DNA of 64,000 bases. It comes from Paenibacillus sp. FSL H8-0548. Its GTDB lineage: Bacteria; Bacillota; Bacilli; Paenibacillales; Paenibacillaceae. The translations under genes were made by a program, and so were the position numbers. The notes under the pieces were generated by a model. That model was not told the DNA's origin. It made no database searches and saw only the letters and a program-made list of their open reading frames with translations. Shown here piece after piece: positions 16,878 through 24,814 of this stretch; the stretch's first letter is position 1, and each line of letters opens with the position of its first letter. The stretch covers positions 5,786,501 to 5,850,500 of the forward strand of contig NZ_CP152049.1 of the NCBI RefSeq assembly GCF_038630985.1, given 5' to 3'.

Positions 16878-17860
16878 CTGGACAGTCAAAAGTTCTAATG
16901 CTTAAGAAACCAGCAAATCAGCGTCAGAATCAGATGTTTTTTGCTTGGAACAAATAATTTGAGTTATGGATAAGTGCTGGTTTTGAGCAAACAGGCGAAA
17001 AATTGACGTGCGCAAATAAGCGGCAACGGTGGCCTTCGAAACCATGTGCATCCGAGTCGTTCCATGTGCGTTCAACTCGTTTAAGCGCGCCAGCGCAGGA
17101 ACGGACAGGAAATAGCGCTCCAGCAGGAGCATGGCTTTCCCGAATGTCTTGGCAGCCACAAAGCCTTGTTCGATCATCTGCACGACATGGGAATCCTGCC
17201 TCTCTGAGGGTTCTCTCCAACTGAATATGGTTTTCACGCCATCCTGCAGATTCATGAATAAGGGTAGGCAAAACCACTTCTGCGGCGTTCCCATGAGAAT
17301 GCCAACAGCGCCAAACAGATGTCCGAAGATGTACTCCGCCTTGGAAGAATTGTCGGACTCCTGATGAAGTTTTTTGACGCTAGGCATCCGCCGCGCTTCC
17401 TTTGTCTGCTTCATCCCATCGCCTATTAGTACAGCCATTCCATTAACATAGTGAAGTGGAGCTGTTTGCTTCACGACTTGAAGCCATTTCAACCGAAGGG
17501 ATTCCAGAGACCAAGCGGAAGAACGAAAAAAATGGATGAGACTCTCATAGCAACGGGATTGCAAAGACAGATCCCGAATGAAGAAAGTCACACCCAGATG
17601 ATCCGAACGCAACATGAGGCCGAAGATGGTAACAACAAACCAGTGGTAAGCGGCTCCTCTGGAGAAGCAAGGACGAAAATGTTGCATGATAGAATCGATA
17701 TATTTTAGCATGTTATGGTATGGTGAATCGCTAAAAAATCGGATAAACTACTGAATGTAGCCCATACAGCGATTGATCTCCTTTTTGGTGTCGGAACCTT
17801 AGGATATCATGCCTTCGCTTGTTTGGGTTATTTTTCTATGGAAAACTTTTAACTGTCCAG
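16878..17860 (-). mobile_element. internally deleted insertion sequence with both ends
   Basis: The element is bounded by 17-bp terminal inverted repeats that match at 16 of 17 positions: CTGGACAGTCAAAAGTT at 16878-16894 and the complement of CTGGACAGTTAAAAGTT at 17844-17860. It is 983 bp long and carries one transposase frame that stops after the N-terminal half. I see no clear target duplication beside it (left flank aatactat, right flank aatataaa). Intact relatives with about 440-residue transposases should be near 1.4 kb, so about 0.4 kb seems lost from the 3' half of the gene. Confidence 0.8.
16902..17711 (-). pseudogene. truncated DDE (IS4-like) transposase
   Basis: The 269-residue frame keeps the N-terminal part of a DDE transposase, including LIGDGMKQTKEARRMP, which should hold the first catalytic aspartate, and the KAEYIFGHLFGAVG block. 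The segment MLLLERYFLSVPAL appears to replace the expected second aspartate (LLLDRYF in relatives, from memory) with Glu. After MHMVSKATVAAYL the sequence no longer resembles a transposase and stops, so the YREK-type region with the catalytic Glu is absent. The product is therefore almost surely inactive and the element can move only if another copy supplies transposase. It sits between the two carbohydrate loci. Confidence 0.8.
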
Positions 17861-17882: not shown

Positions 17883-18905
17883 CTACGCACCCATAAGCTT
17901 ATGAAGAACATCCAGAAGAATACTGACTGCTTCGGCCCTGGTTGCCCGATCAAGAGGCGCGAATATGTTACCCCCACGTCCCTGCATTAAACCTTGATCG
18001 ACCGCTAATTTTACTGATGGATTTGCCCAAACAGGGATACTCGCTGTATCCGAAAAGGTCAGGTCAATGATATGGTCTGGTTGTTCCTTTAGAGCACGAA
18101 CGACCATAACGGCCATCTCCGACCTGTTGATCAATCGGTCGCTTTGGAACGTGCCGTCGTCATACCCCTTCACTAGACCTGCTTGTACAGTAGCGGCAAT
18201 GTGTTCTTTGGCCCAATGAGGTATTAGCTTTTCATCGGTAAACTTTAGGACTCCCTGTGCTGCTGGAAGAAGTAGCGTACGCGCCAACAGTGTGGAGAAC
18301 TCTGCTCTGGTAATCGGAAGATCCGGTCTGAACGTCCCATTACTATATCCGGTTACAACGCCCAACTCCAGCGCTTGATTTAATTTCGTTTCAGCCCAGT
18401 GATTTTTAATGTCGTTTATTTTTACGGTCTGCAAATGACTTGGGAATTGCACCTGTTTCTGTTGATTCAACCGCATATCACGGAGAGAAGAGTCGACCAA
18501 TCTGGCTTCCTTGAATACAACATCCGAATTACCGCCCCGAATTCGTTTGAAGCGCAGTTCTGTCATTGTTGCGTTTCCTGAAACCCCTTTTGTGTTACCG
18601 ACCTTAGTGTGCGCGAACAGGATATGCTTCCCCTTAATACTGGGATTAACCGTAAATCCTTCCCACGTGGTACTTGCACCAATAAATTGCAAACGAAGTG
18701 AATCAAATTCAAATTGCAGTTCAAACGCATAAACATCTGACAAGTCCTTTCCTAGCACGGTTAGATGAATTCCATCGTTTGTCTCCAATGTCTTAATTTC
18801 AAATAATGCTTTTTGTTTTTCGGCTGCCTTCACATCCGTGTAAGATAAGCCAGATAAGGTGAAAATCATCACAGCTACTAAAATAAATCTTATGACATTC
18901 GTCAT
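17883..18905 (-). CDS. cohesin + SLH cell-surface anchoring protein
   Basis: This 340-residue secreted protein has a signal peptide (1-28), a single cohesin-like beta-sandwich domain (about 34-150; VYAFELQFEFDSLRLQFIGA) and three SLH repeats (about 163-340; motifs ITRAEF, INRSEM, ATRAEA). SLH repeats bind cell-wall polymer, and cohesins of cellulosome anchoring proteins bind dockerins. The architecture is that of a small wall anchor with one docking module. It is immediately downstream of, and in the same direction as, the GH53 gene whose product ends in a dockerin-like module, so a functional pair is likely but unproven. I start at 18905 because AAAGGA lies 8 nt before that ATG; a GTG at 18929 lacks a site. 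A dyad in the 84-bp gap may attenuate transcription. Confidence 0.85.
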   Translation of the reverse strand: MTNVIRFILVAVMIFTLSGLSYTDVKAAEKQKALFEIKTLETNDGIHLTVLGKDLSDVYAFELQFEFDSLRLQFIGASTTWEGFTVNPSIKGKHILFAHTKVGNTKGVSGNATMTELRFKRIRGGNSDVVFKEARLVDSSLRDMRLNQQKQVQFPSHLQTVKINDIKNHWAETKLNQALELGVVTGYSNGTFRPDLPITRAEFSTLLARTLLLPAAQGVLKFTDEKLIPHWAKEHIAATVQAGLVKGYDDGTFQSDRLINRSEMAVMVVRALKEQPDHIIDLTFSDTASIPVWANPSVKLAVDQGLMQGRGGNIFAPLDRATRAEAVSILLDVLHKLMGA

Positions 18906-18934
18906 CGATTCCATCCTTTCCATAAACACAACGC

Positions 18935-18966
18935 GGGAGGAGACAATTTAACGTCTACCTCCCACC
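18935..18966. terminator. intergenic dyad between GH53 and cohesin-SLH genes
   Basis: GGGAGG-x-AGAC and GTCT-x-CCTCCC arms form a stem with a short A/T loop. On the minus strand the tail is GCGTTGTGTTT, which is weak for a terminator. It more likely tunes read-through from the galactanase gene to the anchor gene, or protects a processed end. Confidence 0.45.
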
Positions 18967-18989
18967 TTTTATGCGAATTAAACACTCAG

Positions 18990-21900
18990 CTACTCATTCA
19001 GCCATTCATCCAGAATCATCTGGGCAATTGCTGCGAGTGTAACGATATCAATGCGCCCTTGCTCAAGAAGATCGGCTTGAGCAATCTCGTTCCAATTCGC
19101 GTCCTCTTCCGTCGCTCCATAGTATTTCGCCACAATCGACAGATCCTTAATCGTCACTTTGCCTGTACCTCCCACAAGTGTAACGATTTTTGAAGCAAAG
19201 GTTTGTACGGCTTCATTCAATGTTTGGGTCGCCTGATTCACTTGCTCCTGTGTAGCGGAACCGCTACCTTGAACCGACTGTGCCGTTTGAATCGCCGCTG
19301 TAAGCATATCCCTTGCTGCTTGCGGATGCTGACCAACTTTATTGCCGGCTACTGAGCGATTCAATTTCGCTTGTGCTATACCAATTGCCGCCTGCAACGT
19401 CGTTTTATCTACAGGTACATCTTGTCGTTGTATGACTGCATCTTGGTAAGCTCTAACTGCATTCGATAGTGCAGTCACAGCCGAATCAATCTCGGCTTGT
19501 GAGGCGGTAGGATTACCGGTTACCCCTACCACTGCTTGAATGGCGGCATGGAATGCTGCTCTTGCTGCAGCAGGATATTGACCCGGCGCGTTACCTTCTA
19601 ACGTGTTATCGTACAGTAGCTGCGCTTCGCCAATACGTTCACCAAGCATTGTTTTATCGGTACGCTTTACGTCGATGTCTAGCCGAGCATCTATCACATC
19701 GACCAAAGCGCTTTCAGATTCAAAGGAAACTTCATAGTCAGAAAGCGAAATATTTAACTGCCCTGATTCAGCGTTCTCTAATATCTTAGCGTGAAGCGTC
19801 AAGAATTCACCTGCTTCAGTCACTGGAGCACCGGTTTTTGCCATGATGATCCGCAATTGACCTTGTTCTGGTTTTACAGCCGTGCCTAGCACTTGCATCG
19901 CGTTGTCATTCAACACGCTCCATGCCGCCTCCGATAGCGAAATGGTTCCCTCGTGATCCACTGTATCAAAAGCTACCTTAAGCGGATCATAGTTCAAGAC
20001 AACATCTAGCGTAGAGAAACCCCCGGTTAGGCTTGATAGGCCTAGCGTCAAATCCAGCGTTTGACCGATATACGCTTCACTCGGTCCACTTACACTTCCC
20101 TTTCCTCCCAGCTTTTCGGGCTCTTCACCACCACTGTTCGCAGAATTGACAGTCAACTCAATTTCTCTGGTGAAAAGGAAACCGCCTGGTATATTACTAT
20201 ATGAATCAACGTTTACTTTGATCGAAGTTGTCCCCGGCTGATGAGCCGTTACGATACCGTGCTCATTTACTGTAGCAACCGAAGAATCGCTGGAGGTCCA
20301 ATAGACTGGCTTGTAATGTGCCGTGGATTGGAAAATACCAATACCCAGCTCAAGTGTTTTGCCAGCATCAAGGCTTACTTTTCTATTCTCTGGTATTTCG
20401 ACTTCGTCTTTGCGATATAACATAATGTCTTCTACGATAATGGGATATTTCACTCCGATTTCAACCGATTGCTCGATACCATTCGAAGCACGTGCCGTAA
20501 TGACGGCCGAACCAATAACCTCGCCTTGATTACCTTCTAACATGGCGGCAGTTACATGCCCATTCTGATCCACACTGATTACAGTCGGGTCAGAACTGCT
20601 CCATGTCAGACTGGTATCAGCGTAGTTCGGAGTAACTGTTGCTTGCAGAGTCGCGTTGTCTCCAATAATGAGTGACGATGGCGCCCCCTGAATAGCAATG
20701 GATTCTGCTGGAACAAGAAAACGGCCAAACACCTGGAATTCTCTCACTCCCGTCCACTGTCCTGGATATATCTTCGTTATCGTAAGACGAATATATCGGC
20801 CTAATACTTGATCTGGGACGTCGTCGGTGGTTGCCATACGTACCGAGCTGCTAGCTGCACTCACCATATCATTGCGAGTGATCACCGTTATGAAATTCGT
20901 GCCGTCCTCTGAAACCTCAATTGTGTAATCCTGCGGTGTCCAACTAACCAGCGCTGTCCGGTCAATGAGTGCCGTCTGTCCCAAGTCGACCGTCAACTTC
21001 TCACCGGCATGGGCACCACCTGAAGACCAAGCCGTACTTTCTTGTCCATCTACCGCATATCTAGCAGGGTTTGAGCCCCCTGCCCGAGTTGCGGTAATCG
21101 ACTTGTTCAGTGACAACAAGTCCGTCACAGTGATTGCCGAGACCGCGGAGAAGCCGCCGTCTTCCGATTTCGTCGTAATTTGCACAGACCCTGCCTTCTT
21201 CGTAAGTACTAGTCCAGACTTATCAACATCCGCCACATCCGAATCGCTAGAATGCCATGTGACCTTCGTATTATCTGCAGTACTTGGAACAACTGCCACC
21301 TCAAGCTGCTGCCATTGTCCTGCAATCAGACTTGCGGAAGATGGTGTTACCGTGATCCCCGTCACCCTGATTTCGTCAGCTACGACAATCGGTATTGAAA
21401 CTGAAGCCCCTCCATCTTTAGCAGTTACGGTTAGATTCGTTGTCCCGTTCTGTAATGCTGTCAATAGGCCACTGTCATTTACAGTTACAACAGAAGTGTC
21501 CTCAATAGACCAAATCAATTCTTTATTCGCCGTATCTACAGGCAGCACGGTCGCCGTCAGCGTCTCTGTATCTCCTTGGCGCATCCGGACGGAAGAAAGG
21601 TTCAGCGTGATCTCCTTCGACTGTACGGGTACGACCGTAATCGTTATGCGATCTGTCAAGCCGGAATCTATAGATGTTGCGGTTATTGTCGTTGACCCTT
21701 CCGTCACCCCTGTTACGAGTCCATTCTCGCTAACAATCGCAACCGAAGCGTTACTAGTAGACCAGTTTACTTCCGGGAAAGAGGCGTTCTCTGGATTAAC
21801 ATCGGCTGTTAACTGCAAGGTACGTCCGAGGCTAAGAGTCGCGTCACCGGGAGAAATCGCGATGCCCTCAACTGGAATTCTGGATACGTTCAACTCAATG

Positions 21901-24743
21901 ATTTGCTGAGCGTTCCCATCTGCAGAAGTAATCGTAATTTGGGTATTACCATCGCGATGAGCAAGAAGTGTGACAGAGTCCGTCACGTTGGTCTGCTGGA
22001 TAAGCTCCCCTGCTCTCGACGTTTCAGCCGCTTCTCCAAGGAAAGAGGCTACATTAGGATCAGAAGATGTGAAGACGATTCGCTGGTCCTTTGCGTCGCT
22101 ATTGCTGATTTTTGCCTTCAGGAGAATACGCTCTCCAACAACGGCTGAGAGTTCTTCTGCAATAGCCGGCATTGTCAGACTAACTCCCGCGGCAAGAACA
22201 GGCACTGCAACGACAACATTTCGAGAATCGGAATAGTTGCCTTCTTTCGTTGTCACCGTAATCGTGGTGGTTCCCTGTCCGACAGCCGTTACAATGCCTT
22301 GCTTATTCACGATTGCCACAGCCTCATTGCTACTTTTCCAGACAAGATTGGAATATGTGAACTGATCTGCAGGCTGTACCGTGGCAACCAGTCGCTCACT
22401 TTCTCCAGCGATCAGCTCCAGCGTGCTCTCCTCCAGTTCCACACCAGTAACAGCTGTAGGTTCTACAGCGTAGGACGCCACGGAATTATGAGAGACTTGA
22501 GCTGTCGAAGGCTTGATAGACGCTTTGCCCCGCCATAAATACGCATACATCCCGTCCATAACATGACCGTCATATGTGAAGAGCGTCCGGTTATCAACCG
22601 TATTACCAATTTCTGTTGTGCTTCCTCCTGGAATCCAAGGAGTGAACCAGTCGTCATGTCCGTCACCTTTGCTCAGCCATTCAGCTGCCCAGTAAAAGAA
22701 ACCAATTTGTGCATTATGCGGGTTAGGCACGTCGCGAAGCGCCTGCATATATTCGATTAACCAGTTGTATTGTCCGCGCTGCGACGTCTCGTAGTACGAG
22801 TTTCCCATGCTCCCCGATACATTCATCGGAGAATATCGGACTGTCGAATGAGCCAGTCCCGTTTCAGAGAAAATCACGTCTTTGTTCGGCCAGCGTGTAA
22901 GATTGTTAGATAATATCCTTACAATGCTGCCAGTCTCTCTGCCGCCATACAAGGAGTAGGCTTCTCCGTCCCACAGCACGTCGTTATTCTCCATATCCGT
23001 ATACCAACTGTTGGTGTATGCGACATCGTAACCATTATTGAGATGGAGGAACCCTCTCGTATTCGGAGACGCATCTTTTATTGCCTGATAGGAGGCATTA
23101 CTCAGTTTCGCGAAGCCTACCTTGTTGTTGGACCAGATCTTTCCATCCGGCCATACATAACCGGCATTCATCTCATTGCCCATTTTGACGGAGTCCGGAG
23201 CGAGCCCCTCATCAACCAAAGTCTTTATAAAATCATAGGTGTAGTTGTACATCGTTGTTTGCAGTTGTTCCATATTTTGGTCGAACCAAGCCAGCGGCTT
23301 CCACGCTTTGCCCACGCTCATCCATTGGTCGCTGTAATGGAACGACACTTCAAACTTCATGCCGTGCTCCTTGGCCCTCCTAGCGATTTCAAGCGCCTGC
23401 TCTTTGCCAAAATAGCCAGGAATCATCTGGCGTGGTTTAGTGACCGTGCCTACCCATGCTAGGTCTCCTGTATACGTCATCGTATCGGTCACCATCACAA
23501 GATCATCCCGAAGGCCCGCATGGTAGTCCTTCCAAGCTTGCTCGTCGTAAATATAGTTCCCGGATTCCACGAAAAACATGGAAGTGACCGCATTAACGCC
23601 TCTGTTGCGAGCTATATCAAAAAAGTCTTGTTCGACGCCGTTTGCTTTATACTTACCACCGTAATCTTCCACGACAAGCAAATAAGATACGTCCACGCCT
23701 TTAACCACAGTCTGATCAATTTGGAACAGATCAATGTTATCGACTTGTCCGTCGCCCGTTCCGTCATTACTACGTTCGACGTAAATCGTAGCCGTTGTTT
23801 CTTCCGGTCCCGTGCGGAAAGCAACAGAGACTAGCGAATATATGGTCGTCGCTGACGGAGCCGAGCGACTTTCATCGATGCCTTCTACTCCGATACGAAT
23901 CCGCTCATTTCCATTTCCGACTTTCGTACGCACTGTCGCGATATAATCCTTCCCCGGTTCGACGGCAACAGTTTGCGAGATACGAGAACCCGGGCTAAGT
24001 TTTGCTGCATAAGCTCCAGCGTCAACACCAGTTGTAATGGCTGAGACACTGCCAGTTGTTGCCCATCCATTCATGTTTCCGCTTTCAAAACCCCAGTTTT
24101 GTAGAGGATTTTGATCAGAATGCTCCATATAAAACTCAACATTGTCTATTTCTATTGCCATTCCCGCAATAGCATCCTGAATATGAATTCCGATTGTCGC
24201 CTGACCGTTATAGACGATAACGTTTCGTAACAGAACATGATTCCAGTCTGTCTTGTTTTTACCGAATAAGTTCAGGAAAGCTCGCATGGGTGGAGCACCG
24301 GTATCCTTCGCTTCGAGAAAAGCCGCTCTTTGCTGCGATGCGCTGTCCGGGGTCGGACTGTTCGTACGGATCCATGCGGACATCGTATAAGTGCCCTGTT
24401 CTAGACCCGTATGTACTTGATAAACCCCTACGCCAGGATTATCGTAATTGCCCGTTCTGCTTGTTGCCGAAAGCTTGAGAGAGTAATTCCCGCTTTGACT
24501 GCTCGACTGAGTTGTAACTGTCCCTGCTCTCGCGTTCGTCTGCCAGCCTGTCGGAGATATCGTTACTTGCTCATCCGCTTCAAATCCTGGATTTATGACA
24601 AGATTTCCTGCCGATGCGAATGATTCGTATGATGCCGCATTCGTTACCTGGCTATTGTTCCCCCCCCAAGCGAATGAAGCAGCAACCAATGCAAAACATA
24701 CAAACGATAATAATGATTGCCGCATGATCTTTCTCAATCTCAT
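18990..24743 (-). CDS. GH53 endo-beta-1,4-galactanase, modular, cohesin and dockerin-like
   Basis: This 1917-residue secreted enzyme should cut beta-1,4-galactan. In order: signal peptide (1-36); two CBM-like beta-sandwich modules (about 45-345); GH53 catalytic barrel (348-745) with acid/base E524 in GNEMN and nucleophile E627 in FSETG; a run of Big_2 Ig-like domains interrupted by a discoidin domain (QYARYAVDGQESTAW-like region, about 1230-1370); a cohesin domain (about 1545-1690, VSGPSEAYIGQTLDLTLGL); two FIVAR repeats (about 1695-1855); and a C-terminal dockerin-like module (1856-1917). Its calcium loops look degenerate. AAGGAGG lies about 10 nt before the ATG at 24743; the frame open to 24809 lacks a signal there. 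It has its own promoter with a cre-like site, and its downstream neighbour is a cohesin-SLH protein. Owning both a cohesin and a dockerin-like end is unusual for one enzyme. Confidence 0.88.
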   Translation of the reverse strand: MRLRKIMRQSLLSFVCFALVAASFAWGGNNSQVTNAASYESFASAGNLVINPGFEADEQVTISPTGWQTNARAGTVTTQSSSQSGNYSLKLSATSRTGNYDNPGVGVYQVHTGLEQGTYTMSAWIRTNSPTPDSASQQRAAFLEAKDTGAPPMRAFLNLFGKNKTDWNHVLLRNVIVYNGQATIGIHIQDAIAGMAIEIDNVEFYMEHSDQNPLQNWGFESGNMNGWATTGSVSAITTGVDAGAYAAKLSPGSRISQTVAVEPGKDYIATVRTKVGNGNERIRIGVEGIDESRSAPSATTIYSLVSVAFRTGPEETTATIYVERSNDGTGDGQVDNIDLFQIDQTVVKGVDVSYLLVVEDYGGKYKANGVEQDFFDIARNRGVNAVTSMFFVESGNYIYDEQAWKDYHAGLRDDLVMVTDTMTYTGDLAWVGTVTKPRQMIPGYFGKEQALEIARRAKEHGMKFEVSFHYSDQWMSVGKAWKPLAWFDQNMEQLQTTMYNYTYDFIKTLVDEGLAPDSVKMGNEMNAGYVWPDGKIWSNNKVGFAKLSNASYQAIKDASPNTRGFLHLNNGYDVAYTNSWYTDMENNDVLWDGEAYSLYGGRETGSIVRILSNNLTRWPNKDVIFSETGLAHSTVRYSPMNVSGSMGNSYYETSQRGQYNWLIEYMQALRDVPNPHNAQIGFFYWAAEWLSKGDGHDDWFTPWIPGGSTTEIGNTVDNRTLFTYDGHVMDGMYAYLWRGKASIKPSTAQVSHNSVASYAVEPTAVTGVELEESTLELIAGESERLVATVQPADQFTYSNLVWKSSNEAVAIVNKQGIVTAVGQGTTTITVTTKEGNYSDSRNVVVAVPVLAAGVSLTMPAIAEELSAVVGERILLKAKISNSDAKDQRIVFTSSDPNVASFLGEAAETSRAGELIQQTNVTDSVTLLAHRDGNTQITITSADGNAQQIIELNVSRIPVEGIAISPGDATLSLGRTLQLTADVNPENASFPEVNWSTSNASVAIVSENGLVTGVTEGSTTITATSIDSGLTDRITITVVPVQSKEITLNLSSVRMRQGDTETLTATVLPVDTANKELIWSIEDTSVVTVNDSGLLTALQNGTTNLTVTAKDGGASVSIPIVVADEIRVTGITVTPSSASLIAGQWQQLEVAVVPSTADNTKVTWHSSDSDVADVDKSGLVLTKKAGSVQITTKSEDGGFSAVSAITVTDLLSLNKSITATRAGGSNPARYAVDGQESTAWSSGGAHAGEKLTVDLGQTALIDRTALVSWTPQDYTIEVSEDGTNFITVITRNDMVSAASSSVRMATTDDVPDQVLGRYIRLTITKIYPGQWTGVREFQVFGRFLVPAESIAIQGAPSSLIIGDNATLQATVTPNYADTSLTWSSSDPTVISVDQNGHVTAAMLEGNQGEVIGSAVITARASNGIEQSVEIGVKYPIIVEDIMLYRKDEVEIPENRKVSLDAGKTLELGIGIFQSTAHYKPVYWTSSDSSVATVNEHGIVTAHQPGTTSIKVNVDSYSNIPGGFLFTREIELTVNSANSGGEEPEKLGGKGSVSGPSEAYIGQTLDLTLGLSSLTGGFSTLDVVLNYDPLKVAFDTVDHEGTISLSEAAWSVLNDNAMQVLGTAVKPEQGQLRIIMAKTGAPVTEAGEFLTLHAKILENAESGQLNISLSDYEVSFESESALVDVIDARLDIDVKRTDKTMLGERIGEAQLLYDNTLEGNAPGQYPAAARAAFHAAIQAVVGVTGNPTASQAEIDSAVTALSNAVRAYQDAVIQRQDVPVDKTTLQAAIGIAQAKLNRSVAGNKVGQHPQAARDMLTAAIQTAQSVQGSGSATQEQVNQATQTLNEAVQTFASKIVTLVGGTGKVTIKDLSIVAKYYGATEEDANWNEIAQADLLEQGRIDIVTLAAIAQMILDEWLNE

Positions 24744-24814
24744 TAGAATCCTTCCTCCTTTGTTATCAATTGCAAACGAGCCTATGATACATAAAAAAGA
24801 CTGGAGCACATAAA

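Follow-up and report, generated by a model that had tools for sequence, protein, structure and literature searches.

The galactanase gene and the anchor gene that follows it on the minus strand would make up an operon-like unit within a scaffoldin-poor, dispersed system for cell-surface display in Paenibacillaceae, and the enzyme ends in a dockerin of a class in which both calcium loops lack most of their ligands. The two genes lie in a 64,000-nucleotide stretch of the genome of Paenibacillus sp. FSL H8-0548, called the window below. In the mechanism that we propose, SLH repeats would hold the anchor protein in the cell wall with one cohesin presented, and the exported galactanase would dock onto that cohesin via its C-terminal dockerin. 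Dockerin proteins of this genome have a cohesin of their own, so that each docked enzyme would provide a new one, and enzymes of the same class could add head-to-tail; the outcome would be wall-tethered enzyme chains, joined within a class. The class II dockerin, defined below, should keep its shape without calcium. As a whole (anchor docking, head-to-tail chains and calcium-free class II dockerins), we regard this model as fairly probable.

The galactanase gene comes first and is separated from the anchor gene by a 60-base spacer (Table 1). Around the pair are genes for a GH115-like protein and a GH78-type rhamnosidase, together with AraC-type regulators, a two-component system and parts of a sugar ABC transporter, a content that fits a plant-glycan utilisation locus. 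A transposase-like reading frame that resembles the IS701 family in part (57.7 bits against a cut-off of 170) is found just downstream of the anchor gene, at positions 16902-17711 of the window. The anchor frame encodes 348 amino acids from a GTG and 340 from the ATG at 18905, the likely start codon, and the best database match to the protein is a 340-residue entry. Likewise, the enzyme frame encodes 1939 amino acids from a GTG and 1917 from the ATG at 24743, the likely start, which is also where the preliminary description had placed the end of the locus. Hydrophobic N-termini and domain content suggest that both proteins are exported, the anchor to the wall.

Table 1. Features of the galactanase-anchor pair (positions are those of the window)
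Feature	Position	Strand	Basis
Cohesin-SLH gene, putative wall anchor	17883..18929	-	ORF list, Pfam, homology search
Three SLH repeats (approximate limits)	17895..18422	-	Pfam 122.8 bits, 3 stretches
Anchor cohesin, N-terminal	18429..18815	-	Profile searches, hhalign, segment scan
GH53 galactanase gene, multi-domain, apparently secreted	18990..24809	-	ORF list, Pfam, PDB comparison
Class II dockerin, enzyme C-terminus	18993..19214	-	Profile comparison, loop residues, segment scan
FIVAR repeat 2	19200..19409	-	Pfam and repeat search
FIVAR repeat 1	19449..19610	-	25.8 bits, under cut-off alone
Enzyme-borne cohesin, class II, with insertion relative to class I	19716..20081	-	PF00963, alignments
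F5/8 type C domain, residues 1238-1357	20739..21098	-	Pfam
GH53 catalytic region	22515..23717	-	Pfam and alignment to solved galactanase

The enzyme is a GH53 endo-beta-1,4-galactanase by its domain (197.5 bits in Pfam), by its similarity to solved GH53 galactanases (E 1.5e-32 in a PDB sequence search) and by the presence of the GNE and SETG motifs, which align to those of a solved galactanase and which we take to be catalytic. Pfam also detects CBM4_9, Big_2, F5/8C and FIVAR domains. Whole-protein scans with Pfam and NCBIfam did not report the enzyme cohesin, nor the two weak domains of the pair, which are the anchor cohesin and the dockerin. The enzyme cohesin was recovered by a segment scan and by a search of the strain's own genome, and scores above the PF00963 cut-off of 24.1 in both (40.4 bits as a segment, 39.8 bits in the genome search).

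The anchor cohesin falls below that cut-off (13.3 bits), and a phmmer search of the PDB with the single domain gave weak matches only, to antibody chains. Profile comparison resolved the matter. A profile built from the nine anchor cohesins of this genome matched 15 PDB sequences at E<=1; most matches are weak, and the best of them (E 1.4e-5) draws on two weak domains in a single chain. All 15 are scaffoldin or cohesin chains or the NagJ module, a cohesin too. When aligned with hhalign, class II anchor cohesins matched class I enzyme cohesins with a probability of 97.65% (E 2.6e-12) and class II enzyme cohesins with 92.4%. The anchor thus combines a cohesin and SLH repeats in one protein, as SLH-anchoring cohesin proteins do.

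The dockerin of the window scores 14.5 bits with PF00404, below the cut-off of 22.9, and its calcium loops are not those of a type I dockerin; its homology to dockerins is nonetheless clear. The class II and class I dockerin profiles align over 55 columns that cover both repeats (hhalign 99.4%, E 1.1e-21), and SLH and enzyme-cohesin controls both stayed under 1%. PDB searches were less informative: phmmer with the single window dockerin yielded weak matches only, including EF-hand proteins and two dockerin-bearing scaffoldin chains, and the class II profile retrieved weak EF-hand and dockerin matches plus one unrelated chain, with a best E of 0.02. The class I profile finds the hyaluronidase chain of the Clostridium perfringens entries 2jnk/2ozn (E 4.3e-8), and 2ozn also turned up in the search with the anchor-cohesin profile. 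Hence, the two proteins have the composition that the preliminary description had read from the sequence: a protein of about 340 residues with one cohesin-like domain and three SLH repeats, and a GH53 enzyme with its own cohesin, two FIVAR repeats and a dockerin-like end. The check on domain families proposed there places the anchor cohesin and the dockerin-like end with cohesins and dockerins (hhalign, PDB profile search).

A PF00963 search of the FSL H8-0548 genome found 30 cohesin matches at E<=1, 25 of them above cut-off, spread over 29 reading frames. These comprise 18 large cohesin-dockerin proteins, one protein with a duplicated cohesin-dockerin unit, nine cohesin-SLH anchors and one phosphoesterase-SLH protein. 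The idea of a two-gene system must therefore be abandoned, since the pair of the window is one among nine anchor loci and 18 cohesin-dockerin proteins. The large proteins end in cohesin-(FIVAR)-dockerin, and 17 of the 18 have a recognisable catalytic domain (GH43, GH127, GH51-like, GH3, PL11, GDSL esterase, GH5, GH30, GH2, GH141, GH53 or alginate-lyase-like); the exception is a 2439-residue protein of locus L082. All 19 matches that the class II dockerin profile has in this genome (E<=1e-6, class I cross-hits included) lie inside cohesin-bearing frames. The same is true for 18 of the 20 PF00404 matches, the other two being weak (E 0.6-0.8) and in short frames.

None of the cohesin matches in this genome belongs to a multi-cohesin primary scaffoldin, the maximum being two cohesins per frame. 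The protein that reaches this maximum (L084:9671-10948; genome positions 2667670-2668947) has 425 amino acids, two cohesins and two dockerins without a catalytic domain, and is possibly an adaptor; by the simple rule of PMC11557425 (two or more cohesins, as far as its accessible text describes it), this protein would qualify. A 550-residue frame of similar composition is present at locus L111. The phosphoesterase-SLH protein (L092:3496-7620; genome positions 6073495-6077619) has 1374 amino acids, a metallophosphoesterase domain, three SLH repeats and a weak cohesin match below cut-off (21.7 bits). The anchors of L085, L090 and L091, and listed anchors with frames of 550-630 residues, represent a second form in which a long stretch separates the cohesin from the SLH repeats. 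Loci L085 and L091, at about 2.74 and 5.70 Mb, are paralogous and carry a GH3 enzyme, a long cohesin-SLH anchor and a 478-residue solute-binding protein; the printed ends of the two solute-binding proteins are identical, and the loci are an apparent segmental duplication.

The distribution of such anchors extends well beyond this strain. Of 197 Paenibacillaceae-type genomes, 79 match the anchor-cohesin profile at E<=1e-8, and these belong to 14 of the 19 genera. We examined 80 regions around listed anchors, taken from the upper part of the match list; together with the strain's own genome and Paenibacillus sp. SY21-1 (L093), where the GH53-anchor pair is conserved in synteny, they provided 91 anchors, one of which is counted twice because two loci overlap. 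A dockerin gene lies directly upstream on the same strand for 76 of the 91 and directly downstream for nine. Six anchors have no adjacent dockerin gene (L089 in the own genome, L115, L130, L139, L149 and L160), an observation that speaks against our explanation. The scan of genome contigs returned two loci, L093 and L094, the latter matched through its SLH part only, and a search of the plasmid collection gave no match.

Anchors and dockerins also co-occur across genomes. Dockerins were found in 66 of 79 genomes with an anchor and in 12 of the 118 others (p 1.5e-26, relatedness ignored); if the 12 genomes that have weak anchors only are moved out of the first set, the figures become 66/67 and 12/130 (p 1e-38, relatedness again ignored). 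Together with the upstream pairing, this co-occurrence supports the cellulosome-like display system that the preliminary description had envisaged.

Calcium dependence is the usual hallmark of dockerins. The upstream pairs include 75 distinct ones, and 74 were classified after one was left out because no enzyme cohesin was detected in it. The residues at loop positions 1, 3, 5, 9 and 12 split them into 37 class I and 37 class II pairs. Class I loops are mostly DND(S/T)D and DNDDD, with three rows in which loop 1 was not parsed by the pattern. In class II, loop 1 mostly resembles LPQTD, and loop 2 is mostly DFxTE. With D, N, S and E counted as calcium-type residues at positions 1, 3 and 5, the first loop of class II retains no more than one out of three, and the second loop one or two. 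The window dockerin belongs to class II and keeps none in loop 1 and one in loop 2. This loss, which the preliminary description did not mention, turns its proposal to measure binding with and without calcium into a specific prediction about calcium dependence.

Could a dockerin without ligands be a decayed remnant that binds nothing, with anchors and enzymes being ordinary, separate surface proteins? The loss of most ligands in both loops and the score of the window dockerin below the Pfam cut-off would agree with such decay. The conservation of the class is, however, difficult to reconcile with it. At 90 bits or more, the class II profile finds at least 58 copies in at least 33 of the 197 family genomes (training rows included; up to 29 candidates scored per genome), and the class II alignment has 15 invariant columns in 19 rows. 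In addition, the median dN/dS of class II dockerins is 0.20, compared with 0.30 for the enzyme cohesin and 0.28 for the anchor cohesin of the same 48 non-independent pairs; the class I medians, from 14 pairs, are 0.14, 0.19 and 0.26, respectively. Purifying selection acts on class II dockerins, and we consider decay very improbable.

All 33 genomes with class II dockerins at 90 bits or more carry a strong anchor. In a sample of 299 genomes of the phylum, the class II profile matched the own genome and gave one further, weak match (E 5.1e-8) only. Below the 90-bit group, the next scores are 75.3 and 69.8; the former belongs to a dockerin (G017:C107:78446-78652) that falls between both classes and is possibly an intermediate. 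Two points about the ligands count against our explanation. Class II loop 2 retains some calcium-type residues, as given above, and ligand loss is not wholly confined to class II: a GH30 protein of the own genome (L088:5892-8270) combines a class I cohesin with an overall class I dockerin that has no loop 1 motif, the sole case found among 62 class I tails. A possible interpretation is that this dockerin represents a step toward calcium independence.

The class of the dockerin coincides with that of the cohesin in the same protein in all 101 distinct tails (62 class I, 39 class II). The profiles first used for this comparison had been trained on pairs labelled by dockerin class, which account for 74 of the 101 tails, so the test was repeated without labels; label-free clustering of each domain and leave-one-out scoring both gave 101/101. 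The distance from cohesin to dockerin varies in steps of about one FIVAR length, and the FIVAR number read from it is 0-1 in class I and 1, 2 or 3 in class II.

These data lend themselves to a reading in which the dockerin's sole partners are enzyme cohesins, whether its own or that of a sibling, to form closed monomers or soluble chains as in Clostridium perfringens, while the SLH anchor binds another ligand. Besides the full concordance of tails, dockerin distances track those of the enzyme cohesin (r 0.834) above those of the anchor cohesin (0.451) or the SLH region (0.287), and the partial correlation with the anchor cohesin, given the enzyme cohesin, is -0.16. Similarly, class labels change once on the enzyme-cohesin tree and eight times on the SLH tree; on the anchor-cohesin tree they change five times, where shuffled labels give about 25 changes. 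However, the enzyme cohesin and the dockerin sit on one polypeptide, and joint inheritance inflates their correlation. The FIVAR repeats, used as a control, also show one class change, against two for the anchor cohesin in the same 52-row subset; the tail may thus be inherited as a block, and for this reason we rejected tail concordance as proof of binding. Binding to enzyme cohesins alone also leaves aside that anchors adjoin dockerin genes in 85 of 91 cases and co-occur with them across genomes. Altogether, we find it unlikely.

One observation in favour of docking onto the anchor, our preferred reading, comes from re-pairing dockerins and anchors within genomes (2000 permutations): the correlation between dockerin and anchor cohesin dropped from the observed 0.451 to 0.198 ± 0.042. 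The SLH control also exceeds its re-paired value (0.287 against 0.120), so that linked inheritance explains part of the signal. Within class II, the dockerin correlates more with the anchor cohesin (0.651) than with the SLH region (0.419); within class I, the two correlations are equal (0.692 and 0.689).

Anchors follow dockerin class more loosely than enzyme cohesins do. At L106 and L107, the class I anchors show 66-76% identity to the class II anchors of L109, L113, L119, L120 and L126 and form one clade with them, which counts against our explanation and weakens the case for a strict class code in anchors. One example involves L107 (class I) and L109 (class II), which lie about 27 kb apart on contig 18 of genome G072: their anchor cohesins are 76% identical and their dockerins 34%. 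Either few residues suffice to switch class, or the anchor recognises a surface that the two classes share.

The second option amounts to saying that anchor cohesins accept both dockerin classes, which would then reflect stability with or without calcium and not separate recognition codes. The 76% identity of the anchor cohesins at L107 and L109, against 34% for their dockerins, fits this proposal, as do the helix motifs that class I and class II dockerins share in the hhalign alignment. Class is, however, strongly clustered on the anchor-cohesin tree, with the five changes mentioned above, and certain anchor residues tell the classes apart (position 31 is A in 32 of 37 class II anchors and G in 32 of 37 class I anchors). 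Acceptance of both classes is compatible with docking onto the anchor and overlaps our explanation; we consider it a real possibility, albeit short of an even chance. Somewhat more doubtful is the most elaborate version of our model, in which each cell would run two parallel cohesin-dockerin codes, one calcium-dependent and the other calcium-free, in scaffoldin-free, wall-tethered, head-to-tail chains of enzymes that degrade polysaccharides, each seeded by an operon-encoded SLH anchor. As suggested in the preliminary description, the enzyme might perhaps also self-assemble through its own cohesin.

In enzymes of C. perfringens, FIVAR adjoins the dockerin, and the dockerins have canonical calcium loops. 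The window enzyme matches that type in having a cohesin and a FIVAR-dockerin on a catalytic protein. The accessible text of PMC12997984 reports that X82 cohesins and dockerins sit on glycosidases in this species, with both in one GH31 protein, and counts five cohesin enzymes, compared with the 18 cohesin-dockerin proteins of the FSL H8-0548 genome. Unlike the system described here, that of C. perfringens has no SLH anchor, and 'slh' is absent from the main text of PMC12997984.

The closest precedent is Paenibacillus guangzhouensis, whose genome is termed 'scaffoldin-containing', with 35 cohesin proteins, 28 of which have one dockerin-cohesin pair, many with glycoside hydrolase domains; it also has five SLH-anchoring cohesin proteins, and every dockerin but one is on a cohesin-bearing protein (PMC11557425, in its accessible part). 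Its authors propose a cell surface rich in enzymes that differs from conventional cellulosomes (PMC11557425). The general architecture is the same; the accessible text of PMC11557425 covers one species, however, and does not deal with operon pairing, a calcium-less class or spread across the family. As in Acetivibrio-type cellulosomes, a cohesin on an SLH protein would hold a dockerin-bearing partner at the surface (PMC11557425, same part). The differences are that the FSL H8-0548 genome search found no multi-cohesin primary scaffoldin, which together with its CBM3 marks a conventional cellulosome, and that the catalytic proteins carry their own cohesin. A multienzyme complex of P. curdlanolyticus S1 likewise involves an SLH-bearing, scaffold-like protein together with enzymes, but the accessible part of PMC6823336 ties its assembly to glycosylation, with no cohesin or dockerin modules.

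Partial loss of calcium binding has a parallel in Ruminococcus flavefaciens, where group 2 dockerins and ScaA have one recognised calcium-binding repeat, whereas the other is absent or escapes recognition (PMC2930009, accessible part). In class II, by contrast, most ligands of both loops have been lost, and both helices are kept and conserved. No report of dockerins without both calcium loops was found among the matches listed from the open-licence literature exclusive of preprints, as judged from titles and the starts of abstracts. The accessible part of PMC5301203 contains nothing on calcium loss in dockerins, and a 2025 review (PMC12484212) names Paenibacillus once in its accessible text, for an X2-CBM3 study. 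On the accessible content of these sources, the architecture is already known in outline for one Paenibacillus species, and the calcium-less dockerin class is the new point.

If class II dockerins bind, calcium dependence would be a dispensable property of dockerins, and the class could supply calcium-free connectors for designed enzyme assemblies. Classes that occur in natural pairs, with closely related anchors serving one or the other, would open the evolution of cohesin-dockerin specificity to direct tests, and the L107/L109 pair is a natural test of specificity switching. For the family, binding by class II would mean that many members display hemicellulases and pectinases by a scaffoldin-poor route, one that can escape screens requiring multi-cohesin proteins.
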